From positions 930,001-994,000 of the forward strand of contig JAPLFG010000003.1 of NCBI GenBank assembly GCA_026390795.1: a stretch of 64,000 nucleotides of DNA, given 5' to 3'. Below are positions 3,919 through 37,795 of the stretch, piece after piece (positions within the stretch are counted from its first letter, which is position 1; each line of letters begins with the position of its first letter). A model generated the notes under the pieces. The model saw only the letters and a program-made list of their open reading frames with translations. It was not told the origin of the DNA and searched no databases. A program made the position numbers and the translations under genes. Source of the stretch: Ignavibacteriales bacterium. Lineage in GTDB: Bacteria > Bacteroidota > Ignavibacteria > Ignavibacteriales > Melioribacteraceae.

Positions 3919-6185
3919 AACTCCACCTTGAAATTAACTGACGGCAAAAATGGAAGCATGTTTACTCTTTCGCCGGTATCCCTTCGGAAATAAAACAGAT
4001 TATTCCTGTTATAAACATTTAACACACTAACATCAATATACATCTTCAAACGATTTATTTGAATCTTCTTTGACAAACTCAAATCTAAACGGTGATAATC
4101 CGGCAGCTGACCTGTATTCATATCGCCAAGTAATACGAACGGATTATAAGCATCAAGTAAAAATTTATTATCCGAGAGTTGATCTATTGTTAGACGGTCA
4201 TAATAACCAGCTATTTGAGTAAACGGAAGTCCGGAAGTGTAAGTCCACACGGCGCTGGCAGCCCAGCCATTGCCAAAATCAGCTTCCAAAGATAAATTTA
4301 CATTATTGCGGGAATCGTACCGCGGTGAATAAACAACTCCTCTAACATCCTTAAATGCGCGCATCCATGCATACGAGCCGGTAAACTTGAATGGATCAAA
4401 TTGGTATTTTGTTTCAAACTCTACTCCGTATGCTTTACCGGAACCGGCAATAAGATCGGGATCAGATTCAAAATATTTTTGATCGTTAACGATTGCCAAA
4501 TCGTGCATAATTTTATAATAACCTTCTAAATTAAAAGAAAGGTTGTATGACGGCGTAATTTCCAATCCGCCTATATAATGAATAGCACTTGATGGACTTA
4601 AGTACAGAGGTGTTATGACCCACGGATCGAAAATGGAGACTACTTCATTTTCGTCCGAGATAGTTACTAAATCTTGCATATAAATACCCCAGGAACCTTT
4701 AAGAGCTACTTCGGGAATGAATCTTAAAGTAAAGCTGGTTCTTGGTTCGAGAAAGACCGAGGAGCCGCCTCCGGCAAAACGCGTTGCATGTGCTCTTCCG
4801 CCAATATCAGCTCCGAACATTGAACTTCTCAAAATTTTATATTTGACATAAGCACTTACATTAACTCCATGTGTACTTGTATTTGTTGCTTGTCCTCTAA
4901 AATTTTCTAATGTTAAATCCGTATGGACTTCGGTTATCTTAAACCCGCCGGCTAATTCATCTTTGCTGTCATACACATAATTGAAATCAAGCCGCATTGT
5001 AAAATCGGTCAAGTTGTTTTTCAGCCCTTTGGCTCCGCTAAGATTAGGAATTTTTTCTCCGTCGAAAGAACTATAGGAAAGATCCAATTGATAAAAAAGG
5101 GGCGAATCCGAAACCTGAAAATAATTGAAATCGAGTGTTCTATTATTCCATTTGAAGTCCTCGCGAAGCGGGTTATTATTCATAATTTTATCACCGCTAT
5201 TGAACATGCTGATGGAAAATTTGGCATCTTGTAAAAATGAATTATCCGAATAAGTTGCTTTTGCAAAGAGATCATAAAAATCTGCCGGTATTGAATTGTT
5301 ATTTCTAAATTTCTTTAAAATAACATCAGAATAATTTTTTCTTACGCTAATAATAAATGAACCGGAAGGAATAGGTCCTTCCAAAAAAAGTTTTGCAGTT
5401 AGTAAACTGATGGAAGCTTTTCCCCCGAAGGAATTTTTATTGCCGTCTTTAGTATTCACTTTAAGAACTGATGACAAGCGGTGAGTAAATTCTGCCGGAA
5501 ATCCTCCCTTGTAAAATTCCATAGAACTGATCATATCCGGATCAATGGCACTGAAAATTCCTAATGCATGGTACGGATTATAAATAGTGGTGTTATCAAG
5601 TTGAACCAGGTTTTCATTACTCGGACTGCCGCGCACATAAAAGCGGGCTGAAACATCACCACCCGTTTGTACACCGGGCATAGTTTGTAATGATCTGAAA
5701 ATATCCAGTTCAACTCCCTTAGGTAAATTTTCAAGATCCCGGATTGCAATTCTTTGAAGACTTAAATCTGTCGCATTTTCTTTAGCAACTCTTTCACCTG
5801 TTGTTTCAACCGTCTTCATTTGAATGTTTGTTGATGGAAGAAGAGCCCGCAAATTAGTTACAACGTACGGTTCAATCTCAACAACAAATTGTCTTGCCTT
5901 ATAGCCGACATAAGAAATTAAAACAGTTAATCTCTTATTCGGGAGAGAAGCCATTACAAAGAAACCGCGGGAATCCGTTGTCGCGCCTCTATTTAATTCC
6001 TTAATTATAACATTTGCATATGGAAGAGCTTCGGCGGTCAAAGAATCGGCAACAAAACCGCGGAGAATTCCTCTCTCCTGCGCATCAACAATACTATAAG
6101 AAATAAAGAAAAGAAAAATTATGGTAATGAAATGCATTGGTATGAAATGGTCTAGTCGAGAATGAGTCGTAGTAGAATTATTCAA
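3915..6185 (-). CDS. TonB-dependent outer-membrane receptor with N-terminal carboxypeptidase-regulatory-like domain
   Basis: A 756-aa protein. After a signal peptide (FITIIFLFFISYSIVDAQ) comes a CarboxypepD_reg-like beta-sandwich (GFVADSLTAEALPYANVIIKE to about residue 120), then a plug domain (RIAIRDLENLPKG, DIFRSLQTMPGVQ, SARFYVRGSPSNENLVQLD) and a 22-strand-type barrel to the C-terminus (VNFKVEL). Receptors of this form import scarce ligands using TonB energy; the substrate cannot be read from sequence. Two starts are possible: a TTG at 6185 with GGAG 7 nt upstream, or an ATG at 6137 without a clear ribosome site; I keep the first. It is the first gene of a pair with the lipoprotein. Confidence 0.88.
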   Translation of the reverse strand: MNNSTTTHSRLDHFIPMHFITIIFLFFISYSIVDAQERGILRGFVADSLTAEALPYANVIIKELNRGATTDSRGFFVMASLPNKRLTVLISYVGYKARQFVVEIEPYVVTNLRALLPSTNIQMKTVETTGERVAKENATDLSLQRIAIRDLENLPKGVELDIFRSLQTMPGVQTGGDVSARFYVRGSPSNENLVQLDNTTIYNPYHALGIFSAIDPDMISSMEFYKGGFPAEFTHRLSSVLKVNTKDGNKNSFGGKASISLLTAKLFLEGPIPSGSFIISVRKNYSDVILKKFRNNNSIPADFYDLFAKATYSDNSFLQDAKFSISMFNSGDKIMNNNPLREDFKWNNRTLDFNYFQVSDSPLFYQLDLSYSSFDGEKIPNLSGAKGLKNNLTDFTMRLDFNYVYDSKDELAGGFKITEVHTDLTLENFRGQATNTSTHGVNVSAYVKYKILRSSMFGADIGGRAHATRFAGGGSSVFLEPRTSFTLRFIPEVALKGSWGIYMQDLVTISDENEVVSIFDPWVITPLYLSPSSAIHYIGGLEITPSYNLSFNLEGYYKIMHDLAIVNDQKYFESDPDLIAGSGKAYGVEFETKYQFDPFKFTGSYAWMRAFKDVRGVVYSPRYDSRNNVNLSLEADFGNGWAASAVWTYTSGLPFTQIAGYYDRLTIDQLSDNKFLLDAYNPFVLLGDMNTGQLPDYHRLDLSLSKKIQINRLKMYIDVSVLNVYNRNNLFYFRRDTGERVNMLPFLPSVNFKVEL

Positions 6186-28000: not shown

Positions 28001-29509
28001 TTATGGGTTAACTCCGGTATGGCATTCAACACAAGCCATTTCTTTCCACGCATCGCCGCTCTCTTTATCGGGATGTTTGAATATTAGGAATGCATTTATC
28101 GGTGAAACTTCCAATTTATCCGGCGGTCCTTGTGCATTTATTAGATGACATTGATTACAATCCCTTTTTATTACTCTGCCTTGAGGGGTTGCGTGATTAT
28201 CATTATGGCAGCGGAAACACCCCATAAATTCCATATGTCCAATATTATTAGGATAGACATTCCACCGGACTTTCATTTCCGGGAAAATATTTTTCTTAAA
28301 TGCTTCCTGAATTCCTTGAACTGCCTTATCAACTAAATATTTTTTATTCGAATAAATATCGGGATACTTCTCTTTGTAATATTTGTTTATCTCATCTCTA
28401 ATAACAATCATTGCCGTATCGGTAGTAGAAAATTTCTTGTCCATAATTTCAAGCGCCTTGGATTTTATCCAAGGAAGTTCTTTTGGAATTGTGCCAGCCG
28501 CAAGTGCATTATTTAAGAAGAATGTTGGCGGCTGATAATTATGAGACGGTCTGTTGTGACAATCCATGCAGTCCATTGTGCGTGTCTGCATTGTATCCAA
28601 TGCACTTTTTGTAACACTTTCATTTTTGTCTTGATAAACAAACACTTCACCGGTTTTTAAGTTAGTATATCTAACCCAAGGAATTTTTTCACGTTTACTA
28701 TCGGCAGATTTGTATTCTATCTTAACATTTGGGTTAATGTGCCAATGAATTCCTTCTTGAGTTCCAAGTGCGCTTATTTGAGCACCAATTTTCATCGTCA
28801 AAGAAATATCCCACTCAGAATTATTTTCATCGGGCATATAATGTCTTTGAGTTACAAGTTTTCTAGAATAAAATTTTTGAGGCCAATGACATTGTTCGCA
28901 CGTCTCACGTGCCGGGCGTAAGTTTGAGATCGGCGTTTCAATTGGTCTTGGTACGGTACCCAGAGTAACAGCATAAACTTGGTACAAACCGGAAAGTTTA
29001 GATCTAACATACCAGCTTGCGCCTGTTCCAACATGGCAATCAACACAGGCTACTCTTGCATGAGGTGAATTTTGATATGCTGTGTATTCAGGTGCCATCA
29101 CATTGTGGCAGAGTTTACCACAAAACTCAACCGATTCCGTGTAATGAAATGCTTCGTAACTGCCGAACGCAGTTAGAAAAAGAAAAATTGTTGTTCCAGC
29201 AGCAAATATAAAGAAGGCATGTCTGTGGCGGATATTGTTTAGATTTACCTGTGGCCACTCTGTTGCAGGGAGAATATGTTTTTTCCGATCTCTTCTAACC
29301 TTTAGAAACATACCGACAGGAATTATTACCAAACCCATAAACAAAAATCCGGGGAGAATTATATATACAACTAGTCCTAAGTAAGTTCCTCCTCCGGAAG
29401 TGAAGGTGATAACAAATAAAAAGATTATCATGAAAAGACTGATCAATGCAATAGTAGCACCAACCAATGAAACCCAATTTTGAGATGAATGAGGTAATTT
29501 TAGTTTCAT
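28001..29509 (-). CDS. NapC/NirT-like membrane multihaem (7-haem) cytochrome c
   Basis: A 502-aa protein with three N-terminal membrane segments (about 14-38, 44-66, 97-118) and a periplasmic domain with seven haem sites: one unusual Cx3CH (FCGKLCHNV) and six CxxCH (CVDCH, CEQCH, CMDCH, CFRCH, CNQCH, CVECH). The stretch CGKLCH...YQNSPHARVACVDCH is typical of NapC/NirT/NrfH relatives that pass electrons from membrane quinol or a bc complex to periplasmic acceptors. It is the last gene of the Rieske-cytochrome b operon, 157 nt after the 9-haem gene, with a strong terminator right after it. Confidence 0.88.
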   Translation of the reverse strand: MKLKLPHSSQNWVSLVGATIALISLFMIIFLFVITFTSGGGTYLGLVVYIILPGFLFMGLVIIPVGMFLKVRRDRKKHILPATEWPQVNLNNIRHRHAFFIFAAGTTIFLFLTAFGSYEAFHYTESVEFCGKLCHNVMAPEYTAYQNSPHARVACVDCHVGTGASWYVRSKLSGLYQVYAVTLGTVPRPIETPISNLRPARETCEQCHWPQKFYSRKLVTQRHYMPDENNSEWDISLTMKIGAQISALGTQEGIHWHINPNVKIEYKSADSKREKIPWVRYTNLKTGEVFVYQDKNESVTKSALDTMQTRTMDCMDCHNRPSHNYQPPTFFLNNALAAGTIPKELPWIKSKALEIMDKKFSTTDTAMIVIRDEINKYYKEKYPDIYSNKKYLVDKAVQGIQEAFKKNIFPEMKVRWNVYPNNIGHMEFMGCFRCHNDNHATPQGRVIKRDCNQCHLINAQGPPDKLEVSPINAFLIFKHPDKESGDAWKEMACVECHTGVNP

Positions 29510-29666
29510 TTCATTCCTTGTTTATAAATTTAAATTTTATTTACCGGGATAAATCAAAAAGATTTTAACCTTCTGGGGCAAACTTAGTCAGCGCGGGCTA
29601 AAAATCCAAGACCTTATTCTCTGAATTAAGCCGTTTATGAAAGAAAATGATAGCTTATACAATATT

Positions 29667-30944
29667 TTATTTAGTGGTTTTTTTCTCTTTGTCTTTTATT
29701 TTTAAATATAGCGCTACAACAACTAGGAGAAATACTAATGTTGCTACCGCAAAACCATTTCTGCGTGTATAATATTCATCAATTTCTTTTTGTGCCATTA
29801 AAGAGGCTTTATTGGAAATTGCTATACCCTCATTTGTTCTTGCACTAACTTTAGTCGAATCGAATGTGTGAATCAATGTTCTCGATTGAATAAGTGCCTG
29901 TTTAGCATCCTGCAAGAGAAAGCCAATCTCAATATCATTCATCCCTTTCTTCTTAACTTCTAAATATTTTGCATCTGCCATCGCAAATTGATTCTTCAAA
30001 TTTGTCAGCGATGAATATATTTTTTTCGCAGCAGCGTAACCTTCATCTCCGGATGAATGACACTCAACACATTTCGAATCTTTTCCCACACCGATCATTT
30101 CATCCGTCGGTTTTAATACTGCATGATTGCCGTGGCATTGTTCGCATCCGTGAAAATCTTGTTCTTCAAAAGCTTTTGACATTTTTGTGGAGTTGAAGTA
30201 TTCCATGTTGCTCACATGACAGGTTCCGCATACATTAGAAATTGAGGTAACTCCGGGAGGAATTGCACCATGATTACCGTGGCAATCGTTACAAGCCGGA
30301 GCGCCAACATCTTTCATCTTAAGAAGCGCTACTCCGTGAACACTTTTCGAATATTCTTCCAGTTGATTGCTTGGAAGATTATATTTTTTCATCAACTCCG
30401 AATTACCATGGCATTTATTGCAAGTACCCGGAACATTCAAAGCATAAACAGTCGAACGCGGATCTTTAGCAGGAAGTATTGAATGTGCAGAATGGCAGCT
30501 GGCACACTCTGCTACATTTTCATCTCCCGTTAAAAGTTTTTTACCATGCACGCTGGTGTAATATTGCTCAACTTGATCTGTTTCTATTCTTGGTTGAAAA
30601 ACTCTCATGACATTTATATCTGAGTGGCATTTTCCGCAGAATTTAGGAATGTCCTTGTGTTTAGGTACACCAACAAATCCTTTTGAAGGACTCATAGCAA
30701 TTTCTTGATCATCGCTTGTCGGGTCTCCGCCATGGCAAGATGAACATGAAATGTTTGCATGACGGTGGATATCGTTTTCAGAAAAATCTTTTGGCAGATT
30801 ATCAATTTCTTTATGGCATGAATAACAATGATCTTCTTTTGAGCTCTGTATATTTTTATTTTCTTTCTGAGCGGAAATTACAACACCGAGTATAAACGAG
30901 ATTGTTATAAAATATATCGATAAGTTAAAAAATCTTTTTCTCAT
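29667..30944 (-). CDS. Nine-haem periplasmic cytochrome c with C-terminal membrane anchor
   Basis: A 425-aa protein with signal peptide (FFNLSIYFITISFILGVVISAQ) and nine CxxCH haem motifs in order: CYSCH, CSSCH, CGKCH, CASCH, CNKCH, CNDCH, CGTCH, CEQCH, CVECH. After the haem domain comes a helical stretch and one C-terminal membrane segment (VATLVFLLVVVALYL) with a Lys-rich cytoplasmic end. The ATG at 30944 has GGA seven nt upstream; a longer frame to 31040 would run through the cytochrome b gene end and lacks support. It sits between the cytochrome b and NapC-like genes, so it likely takes the place of cytochrome c1/f as electron acceptor of the complex. Confidence 0.9.
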   Translation of the reverse strand: MRKRFFNLSIYFITISFILGVVISAQKENKNIQSSKEDHCYSCHKEIDNLPKDFSENDIHRHANISCSSCHGGDPTSDDQEIAMSPSKGFVGVPKHKDIPKFCGKCHSDINVMRVFQPRIETDQVEQYYTSVHGKKLLTGDENVAECASCHSAHSILPAKDPRSTVYALNVPGTCNKCHGNSELMKKYNLPSNQLEEYSKSVHGVALLKMKDVGAPACNDCHGNHGAIPPGVTSISNVCGTCHVSNMEYFNSTKMSKAFEEQDFHGCEQCHGNHAVLKPTDEMIGVGKDSKCVECHSSGDEGYAAAKKIYSSLTNLKNQFAMADAKYLEVKKKGMNDIEIGFLLQDAKQALIQSRTLIHTFDSTKVSARTNEGIAISNKASLMAQKEIDEYYTRRNGFAVATLVFLLVVVALYLKIKDKEKKTTK

Positions 30945-30955
30945 GTTAGTATTCC

Positions 30956-32038
30956 CTATACTAAATAACCGATGACGGTCATTATCACAATGAACGCAAC
31001 AATAATAATTCCAATTAAGGTTAAAGGCTGAATTTTCCAATTGTGTTTATGCTTCACTTTAATGTATGGAACCAGCATCCAGACAATACCCGCAACGCCA
31101 AAAAACAATACTCCGAGCAACTCGCCTTCTAGAAATAAAATATGCGCTGGAAGAAGTTTCAGTGACTGGAACATGAACATAAAGTACCATTCAGGTTTTA
31201 TTCCGGCAGGAGCTGCCGCAAAAGCATCAGCCTTATTTCCTAATTCCCACGGGAAATAAAGTGCTAAAAAAATCAAAATATTAAAAACAATAACCCACAA
31301 AAGAAGATCTTTCAAAGCAAAATCCGGAAAAAAAGAAATATACTTTTTCTTTTCTTCCGGTAAATTTTTGAAATGTTCCGGCTCGTGCATTCCTTGACGC
31401 TGAATAAACAATAAATGAAATGTTAAAAAAACAGTAAATATGGCAGGAAGAATTGCAACGTGAATTCCAAAGAAACGTGATAGAGTGGCGCCAGTTACTT
31501 CTTCACCGCCTCGCAAAAATGTTTTTAACGGTTCTCCAATTACCGGAACAACTCCGACGATATCTGTTCCAACCTTTGTAGCAAAATATGCAAGTTCATT
31601 CCATGGCAAAAGATAACCACTGAATCCGAATGCAAGGGTAAGAACCAAAACAATAAAGCCGGTTATCCAAGTTAACTCGCGCGGTTTTTCATAAGCTTTG
31701 GAAAAGAAAACACTGAACATATGAATAAAAGCAAAGAACACTAATAAATTTGCCGACCAACTGTGCACATTTCTTATCAACCACCCGAATCTAACTTCGG
31801 TTACTATGAAGCGTACACTTTCGTAGGCACTGTCTTCGCCCGGTCTATAATAAAGAAGGAGAAGTATTCCTGTTAGTAACTGGACCAAAAACAAAAACAG
31901 AGTTACCCCGCCCATATAATACCACATTGAATGTTTATGGACAGGAACCTTTTTGTGCTTGAGCATATTATTTAACGGAGAGAGATCATACCGTTCATCA
32001 ATCCATGAAATAATTTTATTTCCAATATTCCCGATCAT
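30956..32038 (-). CDS. Cytochrome b6-type cytochrome b with fused subunit IV region
   Basis: A 360-aa quinol-oxidising cytochrome b. The N-terminal two thirds resembles cytochrome b6 closely ([59 protein letters not shown]). The two haem His pairs are spaced 13 and 14 residues apart, the b6-type spacing in the second pair. The remainder supplies a subunit IV-like part with the Qo motif PEWY. The Cys that binds haem c-prime in b6f complexes (FYC) is Tyr here (WYYMGG). It lies 3 nt after the Rieske gene and 11 nt before the 9-haem cytochrome. Confidence 0.94.
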
Positions 32039-32041
32039 TGC

Positions 32042-32473
32042 TTAACCCATTTTAGTAATAACAATCTCATCTTTAATTATTTTTACATCATATTCTTCCA
32101 GGGGTCTTGGCGGCGGTCCTGAAACATTACGCCCGTTAAGATCATAAACGCCGTTATGACATGCACACCAGATCTGCTTTGTATCATTTTTATACTGTAC
32201 AATGCAGTCCAAATGTGTGCAGCTGGCGGACAACGCTTTATATTGATTGTCCTCTGTTTTAATTAGAATGACCGGCTTTCTACCAAACTTGACTATCTTG
32301 TAACTGTTGGTTGGAAACTCGGAACTCATTCCAGCTTTAACAGAATTCACTTTTGGCTCAGCGCTTTTGGGAGGAATTAAAAATGAAAAGATCGGATAAA
32401 ACACCGCTAAGATGCCGCCGATTCCTCCAACACTTAAAAGTGTGTTCAGAAATTTTCGTCTATCTAATTTCAT
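32042..32473 (-). CDS. Rieske [2Fe-2S] iron-sulfur protein
   Basis: A 143-aa Rieske protein of a bc/b6f-type complex. A twin-arginine-like signal anchor opens it (DRRKFLNTLLSVGGIGGILAVF), and both cluster-binding boxes are present: CTHLDC and CACHNGVYD, followed by the GPPPRPLEEY loop. The ATG at 32473 is preferred to an in-frame TTG two codons upstream. It transfers one electron from quinol to the haem chain; here the next acceptors are presumably the multihaem cytochromes encoded downstream. The gene ends 3 nt before cytochrome b. Confidence 0.95.
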   Translation of the reverse strand: MKLDRRKFLNTLLSVGGIGGILAVFYPIFSFLIPPKSAEPKVNSVKAGMSSEFPTNSYKIVKFGRKPVILIKTEDNQYKALSASCTHLDCIVQYKNDTKQIWCACHNGVYDLNGRNVSGPPPRPLEEYDVKIIKDEIVITKMG

Positions 32474-32526
32474 AACCAATTTATTTTTGATGAGAAATTC
32501 AATTAATTATTACCAAAACTTTTCTA

Positions 32527-34639: not shown

Positions 34640-34664
34640 GTGAGCCACCATTTGCGTGGCTCAC
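34640..34664 (-). terminator. Hairpin terminator after the Cys-cluster repeat protein gene
   Basis: Perfect 9-bp stem GTGAGCCAC / GTGGCTCAC with a 7-nt loop, 10 nt beyond the stop codon at 34675. The leftward T tract (ttattcc) is weak; an AAAAAATTTTTT run lies on the other side of the stem. Confidence 0.7.
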
Positions 34665-34674
34665 AAAAAATTTT

Positions 34675-35400
34675 TTACTTCTTCTCGGTTCTCTTTTCTA
34701 CTTCTTTTTTAACGGATTCTTTATCATTATCATCTTCTTTGATGATCATCCTCTTCATTCCTTTACCAGGCTTCTCCATCCATTTCATTTTTTCCATGCG
34801 ATTCCCTTCTTCGCAGCAACAGCATCCGCCACGCATTCTCATTCCGCGACCGATCTTTTTATCGAAGTAGATCATCTTATCATGTGGCATATTTCCATCA
34901 TCGTTAAAGGATACAGAGATATGTTTCATTCCTTTTTCATCTTTCAAAAACTTTTCCGCTTCTTCACCCTTGTAGGTTTTTGTTTCTTCTTTACCGTCTT
35001 TCGTTGTTGTAACCGTTACTGTTTTATTTCCATCCTCGCTTTCGATTTCAACTTTCTTTTTGACATCTTTATCATTTATTTCATCATTGTCATCACCCTT
35101 TTCTCGTGATCTAAAAAACACAACTTTACCTTCTCCGGGTTCGCTTTCGTTGTTAGTAACTATTTTAATTCTCTTCTGATCTCTCAATTGATCGGCAATC
35201 CTCTGAGCTTCTTTTCCTTCGAAAACCACATCTTTACCATCAACTTTTACAGTAATTTTTTCTACTTTCCCTTTAAGCTGATCCAGTTTTGATTTTGATT
35301 CTTCTTTCTCTTGTGCAAATAATGCAAGCGAAAAAAATCCCATTAAAACAAAAACCATCATTACAATAAATTTTGATTTGTTTGTTTGAAATATCCTCAT
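34675..35400 (-). CDS. Secreted two-repeat protein with CCCC motif, divergent from RprXY-like system
   Basis: No named family recognised. The 241-aa protein has a signal peptide (FIVMMVFVLMGFFSLALFAQ), then a highly charged body. I see an internal duplication: repeat 1 (about 48-99) and repeat 2 (about 128-181) share DGK, a Y/F-x-G-x-E-A core, a Leu four to eight residues on, an Ile-x-Val strand, Asn/Asp turn and Lys-x-x-x-F. After repeat 2 comes RMRGG followed by four successive Cys (193-196) and a Met/Lys-rich tail (KMKWMEKPGKGMKRM). The Cys cluster suggests metal or redox chemistry; that is inference. ATG at 35400 with AAGGAG 8 nt upstream; the longer frame to 35454 is disfavoured. Confidence 0.8.
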   Translation of the reverse strand: MRIFQTNKSKFIVMMVFVLMGFFSLALFAQEKEESKSKLDQLKGKVEKITVKVDGKDVVFEGKEAQRIADQLRDQKRIKIVTNNESEPGEGKVVFFRSREKGDDNDEINDKDVKKKVEIESEDGNKTVTVTTTKDGKEETKTYKGEEAEKFLKDEKGMKHISVSFNDDGNMPHDKMIYFDKKIGRGMRMRGGCCCCEEGNRMEKMKWMEKPGKGMKRMIIKEDDNDKESVKKEVEKRTEKK

Positions 35401-35471: not shown

Positions 35472-35489
35472 TTGTTAAAAATTGTTAAA
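35472..35489. promoter_or_regulatory. Direct repeats TTGTTAAA in the divergent regulatory region
   Basis: Two exact TTGTTAAA copies at 35472-35479 and 35482-35489, one helical turn apart (10 bp). OmpR-family regulators such as the RprY-like protein encoded here bind tandem half-sites with 10-11 bp spacing, so this is a candidate operator between the repeat-protein gene and the kinase gene. Confidence 0.42.
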
Positions 35490-35528: not shown

Positions 35529-37103
35529 ATGAAAGAACGAAAAATAAAAATTATTGTAACATTGATGAGCCTGGCGGTTATCGGCTTAATTGCAGTTCAG
35601 ATGTATTGGATTTCAAATTTGATCCAAGTTGAAAGGGAACGATTTCATAGAAATGCTTTTCGTTCTCTTATAAGAGTAGTGGATCAAATTGACAAGGAAG
35701 AAGCTGCAAAAACAGTTCTTGCAAATATTTTGCATAAATCCGAAACTACTGTTTCCGTTAAAAGTAAAAATAATGCCAAGCAAAAGGAAATCGGAATTTT
35801 TGTTGGCGATAGCTCTTCAAAATCTAAGATGGTAAAAATATTCAGCGACGAAGCGCCTTACAAAGTTAATCCTAAGAATGATTTTGATTCAACCATGAAA
35901 GGTGTACAGTTAAGAGTATTTGCATACTCTCCAAATAGCAGAGCAAACATGCAGCGATACGTCTGGCGGTCGGATTTTGATACGATTGTTAGAAATCGGC
36001 AATCGCTTATTCAAAGAGTTATTACGGAAATGGTAGAGGTTAATTCTCAAAAGAAAATTGAAGACCGTATCTCTACAGAACAATTGGATAAACTTCTTAC
36101 GCAAGAATTTAAGAGCCGTCTCTTGAATACTGATTTTTATTTTGGTGTCTATAAGACAAAAAATAACAGTTTTACATTAGTTAAAAAAGGTACAGATACT
36201 ACGGAAATCAGAAAATCGAGATTAAGGACACTTCTCTTTCCGGCAGAAATGTTTCTCGATAGAAATGAATTGGTTGTTTATTTTCCGGATGAACAGACTC
36301 AAATTTTAAGTTCAATCGTCGGTATGATGAGTCTTTCTGTTGGATTAATCTTGGTCATAGTTGCAGTCTTTTTCAAAACAGTTCAAATGTTTGTGCGCCA
36401 GAAGAAAATTACTCAAGTAAAAAATGATTTGATAAACAACATCACGCACGAATTTAAAACACCAATTTCAACTATCTCAATTGCGTGTGAAGCATTAAAC
36501 GAACCGACGCTTATAAGCGAAAAAGATTCTGTGATGCGTTATTCAAAAATCATCAAAGAAGAAAACGACCGGTTGAAAATAATGGTTGAGACTCTTCTGA
36601 ATACAGCCGCTATGGAAAAAAGCGAGTTCAACTTATCTAGAGAAGAAGTTGATCTGCACGAATTAATCCGCTCGGCTGTATTGATGTACGATGAAGCGAT
36701 AAAACTTAAAGAAGGAAAAATAAATTTCGAATTGAACGCCAATCCATCAACTATTATGTGTGATGACTTTCATGTAACAAATATTATTGCGAACCTTATG
36801 GATAATGCTATTAAGTATAATGAACGCACGCCCGAAATAACCATTACTACAAAAAACATAAATAAATCAATTGTTGTAACAGTAAAAGATAACGGAATTG
36901 GAATTCCTAAAGAATTTCAAGGGAAAATTTTTGAAACATTTTACCGTGTAGCAAGCGGCAACGTACAAAACGTACGCGGTTTTGGAATTGGCTTGAGTTA
37001 TGCAAAAAAAATCATCGAAGCACATAACGGTAAAATTTCTGTTTCGAGCGATGACGGAAAAGGAAGCCAATTTGAATTAATACTTCCGATAGATGGCAAA
37101 TAG
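35529..37103 (+). CDS. RprX-like sensor histidine kinase
   Basis: A 524-aa membrane kinase. First membrane segment at 10-29 (LMSLAVIGLIAVQMYWISNL), periplasmic sensor region to about 255, second membrane segment (IVGMMSLSVGLILVIVAVFF), then HisKA with phosphorylatable H307 (NNITHEFKTPIS) and HATPase with N box (NLMDNAIKYNE), G1 (DNGIGIP) and G2 (GFGIGLSYAKK). The short-spacer layout without PAS or HAMP and the VQMYWISNLI opening resemble RprX of Bacteroides. It overlaps the regulator gene by 1 nt. The signal is unknown; the divergent secreted repeat protein may feed into it. Confidence 0.92.
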   Translation: MKERKIKIIVTLMSLAVIGLIAVQMYWISNLIQVERERFHRNAFRSLIRVVDQIDKEEAAKTVLANILHKSETTVSVKSKNNAKQKEIGIFVGDSSSKSKMVKIFSDEAPYKVNPKNDFDSTMKGVQLRVFAYSPNSRANMQRYVWRSDFDTIVRNRQSLIQRVITEMVEVNSQKKIEDRISTEQLDKLLTQEFKSRLLNTDFYFGVYKTKNNSFTLVKKGTDTTEIRKSRLRTLLFPAEMFLDRNELVVYFPDEQTQILSSIVGMMSLSVGLILVIVAVFFKTVQMFVRQKKITQVKNDLINNITHEFKTPISTISIACEALNEPTLISEKDSVMRYSKIIKEENDRLKIMVETLLNTAAMEKSEFNLSREEVDLHELIRSAVLMYDEAIKLKEGKINFELNANPSTIMCDDFHVTNIIANLMDNAIKYNERTPEITITTKNINKSIVVTVKDNGIGIPKEFQGKIFETFYRVASGNVQNVRGFGIGLSYAKKIIEAHNGKISVSSDDGKGSQFELILPIDGK

Positions 37104-37795
37104 TGAAAAATAAAATTAAAATACTTTTAGTAGAGGATGACGCAAATCTTGGAACTCTGCTGCGTGAATTTCTTTCTGTTAAAGGATTTGATGTTACTCA
37201 TGCTCTAAACGGTGAAGATGGATTCAATCATTTTAAAGCGAATAAGTTCGATCTGTGTTTGATTGATATTATGATGCCTAAGATGGACGGTTTCTCACTT
37301 GCGAAAAAAATCCGTATGATTGATAAACAAACACCATTTCTTTTTGTAACCGCAAAATCTATGCTAGATGATAAATTGGAGGGTTTTAAAATAGGCGCGG
37401 ACGATTATGTGACAAAGCCTTTTAGTATGGAAGAGCTTATTATGCGGATGAATGCAATTATGAAGCGGACTAAAAATGTTCAGATGGAAGATGACAGAAA
37501 TGAATTTAATATCGGCGAGTATAGTTTTGATTACAATAAAAGAATTTTATACCACGGCGGCAATGAACAAAGGCTTACACAAAAAGAATGCGACTTGTTT
37601 AGACTGCTTTGCATTAACAAAAATAAAATTTTGGAACGATCTGAAGCCCTGACTAGAATTTGGAAAGACGAGAGTTACTTTACGGGTCGAAGTATGGATG
37701 TATACATAACAAAACTCCGGAATTATCTAAAGCAGGATAAATCAATTGAAATTATAAATGTACACGGAACCGGCTTCAAACTTATCTCCAAATAA
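37103..37795 (+). CDS. RprY-like OmpR-family response regulator
   Basis: A 230-aa regulator: receiver domain with phosphoacceptor D55 (CLIDIMMPKMDGF), acidic residues in VEDDAN, and K in YVTKPFSMEEL, then an OmpR/PhoB winged helix (LTQKECDLFRLLCIN, RSMDVYITKLRNYLKQD, IINVHGTGFKL). The phrases DANLGTLLREFL and GFKIGADDYVTKPFSMEEL are strikingly like RprY. GTG start overlapping the kinase stop by 1 nt. Its stop directly abuts the stop of the convergent MATE-like gene with no hairpin between them. Confidence 0.94.
   Translation: MKNKIKILLVEDDANLGTLLREFLSVKGFDVTHALNGEDGFNHFKANKFDLCLIDIMMPKMDGFSLAKKIRMIDKQTPFLFVTAKSMLDDKLEGFKIGADDYVTKPFSMEELIMRMNAIMKRTKNVQMEDDRNEFNIGEYSFDYNKRILYHGGNEQRLTQKECDLFRLLCINKNKILERSEALTRIWKDESYFTGRSMDVYITKLRNYLKQDKSIEIINVHGTGFKLISK

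Follow-up and report, generated by a model that had tools for sequence, protein, structure and literature searches.

A predicted exported repeat protein encoded divergently from an RprX/RprY-like two-component system in Ignavibacteriales

INTRODUCTION

To our knowledge, most two-component systems known to have a periplasmic accessory protein are from Proteobacteria. CpxP, Spy and ZraP have a predominantly helical, hooked fold, and we take LTXXQ to be their Pfam family; zraP has a divergent layout and its product binds zinc. In Gammaproteobacteria, CpxP is an exported protein encoded divergently from the cpxRA operon and belonging to its regulon, and excerpts of PMC6737893 describe it as strongly induced, inhibitory to CpxA on overexpression and dispensable for most cues. 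In Enterobacteria, ZraP is a periplasmic accessory protein under its own two-component system, zraP and zraSR both being direct targets of the sigma54-dependent regulator ZraR (PMC7657598, in excerpt). For the RprX/RprY system of Bacteroides and Porphyromonas, the excerpted text of PMC3646045 describes RprY of P. gingivalis as a repressor whose binding sites include its own promoter and those of chaperone genes; the words 'motif' and 'consensus' are absent from that text, and excerpts of the RprXY literature, PMC3646045 included, mention no exported repeat partner.

Here we describe a repeat gene in a 64,000-nucleotide stretch of an Ignavibacteriales genome (the window, meaning the whole stretch analysed) that is divergent from genes for an RprX-like kinase and an RprY-like regulator. 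The layout is of the CpxP type, with divergence in 36/58 gene-positive genomes and a shared GTTAA array in 36/36 of these, while export of the repeat protein and its control by the operon are predicted. As for RprX/RprY, the best NCBIfam model of the regulator is RprY, but its score is below the cut-off and the host belongs to a different order from Bacteroides and Porphyromonas. The arrangement proposed below would also resemble ZraP/ZraSR, although the regulator here is of the OmpR family. Unlike CpxP, the repeat protein has no LTXXQ match in Pfam, carries beta-beta-helix repeats (predicted with low confidence) and a Cys/Met tail, and no sequence relation to ZraP or CpxP was detected. Among the matches listed by literature searches on RprX/RprY, envelope-stress two-component systems of Ignavibacteria and Melioribacter histidine kinases, none dealt with the repeat protein, as judged by title and start of abstract.

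RESULTS

Two repeat units follow an export-like N-terminus

The repeat gene occupies positions 34675–35400 on the minus strand, with the ATG at 35400 as start of the open reading frame (ORF), and its translation is an exported-looking protein of 241 residues, hereafter P0001. In alignment A1, Q30 is invariant in 23/23 rows and the hydrophobic N-terminus of P0001 stops before it, so residues 1–29 (35314–35400, minus strand) resemble a signal peptide. Export is therefore likely as judged by eye, and the protein, called secreted in an earlier sequence-only reading of this DNA, keeps that label at this strength. An N-terminal Gln of mature P0001 would resemble the Bacteroidetes Q-rule, which the excerpt of PMC5837995 restricts to Bacteroidetes.

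The same reading had proposed a duplicated domain, and this was borne out. The translation contains DGKDVVFEGKEA...IKIV...GKVVFF and DGKEETKTYKGEEA...HISV...DKMIYF, which is the repeat pattern it had quoted, and a profile of unit 1 (residues 43–78 from the rows of A1; 35167–35274, minus strand) matched that of unit 2 (residues 113–158; 34927–35064, minus strand) in hhalign with a probability of 85% (E 6e-6, 26 columns). The tail matched neither unit (probability <1%), and these two results together indicate that the repeats exceed chance. However, the core common to both units is about 26–30 residues and the remainder is weaker, short of the roughly 50 residues first ascribed to each repeat. 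An AlphaFold2 model of P0001 from 14 sequences was poor (mean pLDDT 42); it placed beta-beta-helix elements near residues 48–74 and 113–154 with low confidence and left residues 156–241 disordered at pLDDT <50. With a repeat hidden Markov model (HMM) built from A1, 40 of the 58 family ORFs showed two units, 11 three, one four and six a single unit, in a count that takes in fragments and whose 58 ORFs differ from the 58 gene-positive genomes.

Right after the stop of the repeat gene lies a hairpin, GTGAGCCAC...GTGGCTCAC (window 34640–34664), a possible terminator. The same hairpin, with an altered loop, is present in genome G010.

The family matches no known model and looks confined to one order

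No Pfam or NCBIfam model reached its cut-off with P0001. The best Pfam match, cobW (E 0.0011, below cut-off), was found in 1/23 relatives. No Pfam family was common to the A1 set, where the match of widest spread covered three of 23 members; NCBIfam gave two weak matches for P0001 at E ≤0.1 and, for the A1 relatives at E ≤0.01, two families that each matched a single relative. LTXXQ was neither among the three Pfam families matched by P0001 at E ≤1 nor among the best 25 of the 28 matched by the 23 A1 members at E ≤0.1, and no match of P0001 to the T9SS sorting domain Por_Secre_tail was seen in Pfam. P0001 alone had no match in PHROGs, and a profile search of PDB sequences with the repeat protein returned one chance-level match (E 0.2). 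The statement that no known family has this architecture thus stands for Pfam, NCBIfam, PHROGs (P0001 only) and PDB sequences.

Searched as a single sequence, P0001 had relatives in 23 of the 57 genomes nearby, and its own genome gave one match; profile A1 matched 58 of the 164 genomes of the order. In a sample of 395 genomes of the phylum 26 matched A1, 23 inside the order and three outside (G205, G210 and G483), the latter all marginal (E 9.5e-6 to 3.4e-4) and covering the N-terminal part. The 13 named family loci are MAGs under the names Melioribacter, Melioribacteraceae, Stygiobacter, Ignavibacteriales, Ignavibacteria and, twice, Bacteroidetes bacterium. With a search that outside the phylum addressed close relatives only, the repeat protein family looks confined to one order of environmental bacteria.

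The Cys cluster of the tail follows descent

RGGCCCCEEG corresponds to residues 190–199 of P0001, and its four consecutive Cys (residues 193–196; 34813–34824, minus strand), the sole Cys of the protein, lie in a Met/Lys-rich tail. This much had been read correctly from the sequence, but CCCC proved to be one spelling of a variable cluster: relatives have CGCSCC, CSCC, CCCNCC or CECCCC, over a range from CCC to CQCCCCC. In the 14 rows aligned here C196 is invariant and C193 and C195 are nearly so. Within A1, all 18 nearer rows carry the cluster and the five distant ones lack it; a few of the distant family members have their own Cys pairs (L060, L064, L115, L126 and L130). Met/His-rich stretches such as MMMRKPMPGKMKH come after the cluster.

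Metallothioneins have a high Cys content distributed over a short protein. P0001 shares a short run of adjacent Cys with metallothionein-like Cys-cluster proteins, but its four Cys in 241 residues form one run and no metallothionein was among the Pfam matches. The tail could nevertheless act as a metal or thiol buffer that binds copper, zinc or oxidants, with the two-component system as a metal or redox sensor inducing it and the repeats as a mere scaffold; the cluster in all 18 nearer relatives, the invariant C196 and the Met/His-rich stretches would fit such a role. However, many kinase-linked relatives (e.g. L058, L062, L063, L113 and L125) keep the repeats and the array without the cluster, L102 and L103 have the cluster in genomes that gave no kinase match, and no metal transporter recurred among the neighbours that could be labelled by their resemblance to genes of the window. 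The cluster tracks descent, not kinase presence, and on this distribution is not the general basis of signalling. We consider a buffering role unlikely, and the earlier suggestion of a metal-sensing partner remains speculative.

An RprX-like kinase is the recurrent divergent neighbour

Opposite the repeat gene, on the plus strand, adjoining genes encode an RprX-like sensor histidine kinase (35529–37103; HisKA and HATPase_c Pfam matches, sensor profile A3) and an RprY-like response regulator of the OmpR family (37103–37795; Response_reg and Trans_reg_C). RprY (NF051850) was the best NCBIfam model listed for the regulator (E 3.4e-92), at 308 bits against a cut-off of 370; the divergent pair at 35529–37795 is real, but the name RprXY given to it earlier is approximate. 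The kinase sensor had no match among PDB sequences, and a PDB fold search with its model (mean pLDDT 63.5) yielded nothing at E ≤0.001 (best E 1.1; WalK and CzcS sensor domains, E 1.4 and 2.0).

Divergence from and adjacency to an RprX-like kinase extend over 20 genera in the 36 genomes concerned, and the adjacency persists while other flanking genes change. The remaining gene-positive genomes have one gene in between (G128), a kinase elsewhere (G033 and G085) or no detected kinase (19/58). The regulator gene stands behind the kinase in 32/36 adjacent loci, the other four being three contig ends (G029, G120 and G155) and one kinase fragment (G025). Over the 164 genomes, 39 have both gene and kinase sensor, 19 the gene only, seven the kinase only and 99 neither (Fisher p 2e-16, in a test that ignores relatedness). 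The seven comprise kinase fragments at contig ends (G022, G127 and G150), distant kinases (G037, G041 and G098) and G010. Absence of the kinase neighbour in relatives had been named as evidence against a link; adjacency and co-occurrence mostly favour it.

Several rearranged loci were seen. At L097 853–3979 (G129; same region in L036) the divergent block is partly duplicated in tandem, in the order full repeat gene, N-terminal kinase fragment (133 aa), N-terminal repeat-gene fragment (94 aa) and full kinase, and in G129 the intact kinase is opposite the repeat-gene fragment and the intact repeat gene opposite the kinase fragment. At L061 8662–10200 (G025) a 111-aa ORF is what is left of the kinase, the repeat gene falls into two ORFs, and the array is retained. 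Near the locus, window 28001–32479 holds cytochrome b-like, Rieske-like and multihaem cytochrome-like genes (named by eye) that are conserved in genus-mates.

A GTTAA array lies between the divergent genes

The intergenic region of the window contains TGTTAAAAATTGTTAA (35473–35488, plus strand), two direct repeats 10 bp apart, which arrays in related intergenic regions mark as a candidate response-regulator box. With both strands scanned, GTTAA-N5/6-GTTAA occurred once in the 64-kb window. All 36 intergenic regions of adjacent loci have two to four GTTAA direct repeats at 10–11 bp spacing. In the 33 that were extracted, read on the kinase strand, there are two units in 17, three in one and four in 15, and arrays of at least two units occur in 33/33 compared with 0.29% of dinucleotide shuffles; the three other loci, checked separately, have the array too.

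The last repeat ends 40–42 nt before the kinase start in 28/33 loci, and the distance to the repeat gene is looser (58–80 nt in 28/33), which is what autoregulation of the kinase alone would give. A GTTAA pair starting 55–58 nt before the kinase (55 nt in the window) was also found at 10 of 15 chosen loci with other families or with the repeat gene not adjacent. The box therefore goes with this kinase type, and the operator probably predates the association of the repeat gene with the kinase.

TAnnTTTR is likened to the Bacteroidota -7 box. This element, chosen after looking at the sequences, precedes the kinase start in 25/33 regions (3.7 expected) and is on the repeat-gene side in 17/33 (4.5 expected); the window has it on the kinase side only. 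The stricter TAnnTTTG, absent from the window, gave 17/33 and 9/33 (1.4 and 1.1 expected).

Copies away from the kinase

Among the 20 copies not adjacent to the kinase, one has an array and nine have a sigma-E-like promoter (GGAAC-N18/19-TCTAA-like; shuffle mean 0.017), compared with 0/33 adjacent copies; the motif was spotted by eye and the pattern set afterwards, with simple letter shuffles as controls. Likeness was judged against the E. coli sigma-E consensus. The set derives from 22 genes after L121 (cut) and L127 (start unclear) were dropped and some starts corrected; L105, with one gene between it and the kinase, was counted as not adjacent. The nine strict matches fall in 5/12 genera, and a looser second pattern also gave nine, seven of them identical. 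The sequence-only reading had suggested an envelope-stress partner from position; the array shared by 36/36 loci and the sigma-E-like promoters on 9/20 unlinked copies support extracytoplasmic stress control.

Two genomes separate the gene from the kinase. In G033 they are on different contigs, with an array at both and the orientation at the gene as in linked loci; in G085 the kinase has an array, while the gene, elsewhere, has a sigma-E-like promoter and no array, a pattern that counts against a simple rule. The array might serve only the autoregulation of kinase and regulator, with the repeat gene adjacent by common descent, as its tight spacing to the kinase start, its presence at kinase genes without an adjacent repeat gene and the pattern in G085 would allow. 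However, the unlinked gene of G033 retains an upstream array, gene and kinase co-occur over 164 genomes, and their adjacency is kept in 20 genera despite changing flanking genes, so we regard this explanation as very improbable. In G010 (L165 about 4100–4530) the repeat gene is reduced to its 3' end by deletion or assembly error and kinase, regulator and array are still there; the system may thus do without the protein.

Other array sites and related kinases in the phylum

An exact-pattern regulon scan of 13 chosen genomes gave 57 matches versus 41 control matches, so a single match means little and recurrent places alone were kept. Upstream of moxR, an array at a nearly fixed place was found in 13/25 kinase-positive versus 3/25 kinase-negative genomes (p 0.005, Fisher, relatedness ignored), or 10/25 versus 1/25 with the strict pattern. 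For this count a search of 30 genomes per side gave 28 and 27 scored loci, of which 3 and 2 were too short or unreadable, with paralogue or partial loci (L200, L201 and L229–L231) excluded; G032, scored as kinase-negative with a moxR array, has its repeat gene at a contig start, so that a kinase may have been missed there. The evidence for moxR as a further array target is suggestive. In L145, L149, L150, L140 and L157 the array lies just 5' of a GAAAC-N16-TAGAAA-like element before moxR, whose start is seemingly TTG. A gene for a secreted-looking M16 peptidase is preceded by an array in three of the four genus-g1 genomes scanned, which are close relatives (L169 4960–5112, L170 near 4574 and L171 near 4606), and is noted as a lead.

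The kinase sensor profile matched 115 of the 395 phylum genomes at E ≤1e-8, some of them partially. Five of 15 fetched related-kinase loci have divergent exported-looking proteins of other families: T9SS-tailed proteins with a Por_Secre_tail match (L252 4251–5120 and L257 1257–2180), PDZ proteins (L255 3967–4698 and L256 2499–3212) and an outer-membrane barrel (L254 1429–3828). An exported protein beside this kinase type may be a recurring theme, with different families filling the role. These proteins, the varying repeat number and the copies for which no kinase was detected, many of them behind sigma-E-like promoters, would also suit a plain effector of a stress regulon, that is, a secreted repeat protein of coating, chaperone-like or adhesive type that shields the envelope and does not act on the kinase. 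The persistent divergent adjacency to the kinase, which is CpxP-like, suggests feedback instead without proving it, and we hold an effector of this kind to be possible but somewhat unlikely.

DISCUSSION

The repeat family, its repeats, the divergent linkage, the co-occurrence and the conserved array are established by computation. Co-regulation of the repeat gene is supported by the divergent adjacency in 36/58 genomes, the co-occurrence, the array in 36/36 loci and the arrays at both places in G033, and we find it quite probable that this two-component system has the protein as a co-regulated output in the context of envelope stress. In the explanation that we favour, at a probability of roughly 0.6 as a whole and with feedback not required, the product would be Sec-exported and probably periplasmic, with small beta-beta-helix repeats and, in nearer relatives, a flexible Cys/Met-rich tail. 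As the output of the adjacent RprXY-like system, it would act in the envelope-stress response under its control. The phosphorylated regulator would bind the GTTAA direct repeats between the divergent promoters and thereby control the repeat gene jointly with its own operon; because RprY is a repressor in P. gingivalis, the sign of control here could go either way.

In addition, the protein might exert feedback on the kinase in the manner of the enteric proteins CpxP and ZraP, dissociating from the kinase sensor once it has bound stressed envelope material or, via the tail, metal or oxidants. We hold this step to be doubtful. Bolder still, and rather unlikely in our judgement, the protein could be an independently evolved Bacteroidota counterpart of CpxP, in which the tail reports thiol or metal state, the repeats inhibit the RprX-like kinase and the gene is under two-component or sigma-E-type control according to lineage, so that nature would have rewired a single envelope-stress effector from one to the other of the two main kinds of envelope-stress switch.

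The repeat protein is best filed as a new accessory or output protein of an RprXY-type envelope-stress system, from an uncharacterised family, and possibly it would work like CpxP or ZraP without sequence relation to either. If this is true, RprXY-type systems would acquire a specific exported partner together with a defined operator sequence, which would open signal, operator and feedback to experiment. The change between regulator box and sigma-E-like promoter would then clearly illustrate how the control of a single envelope protein can be rewired.
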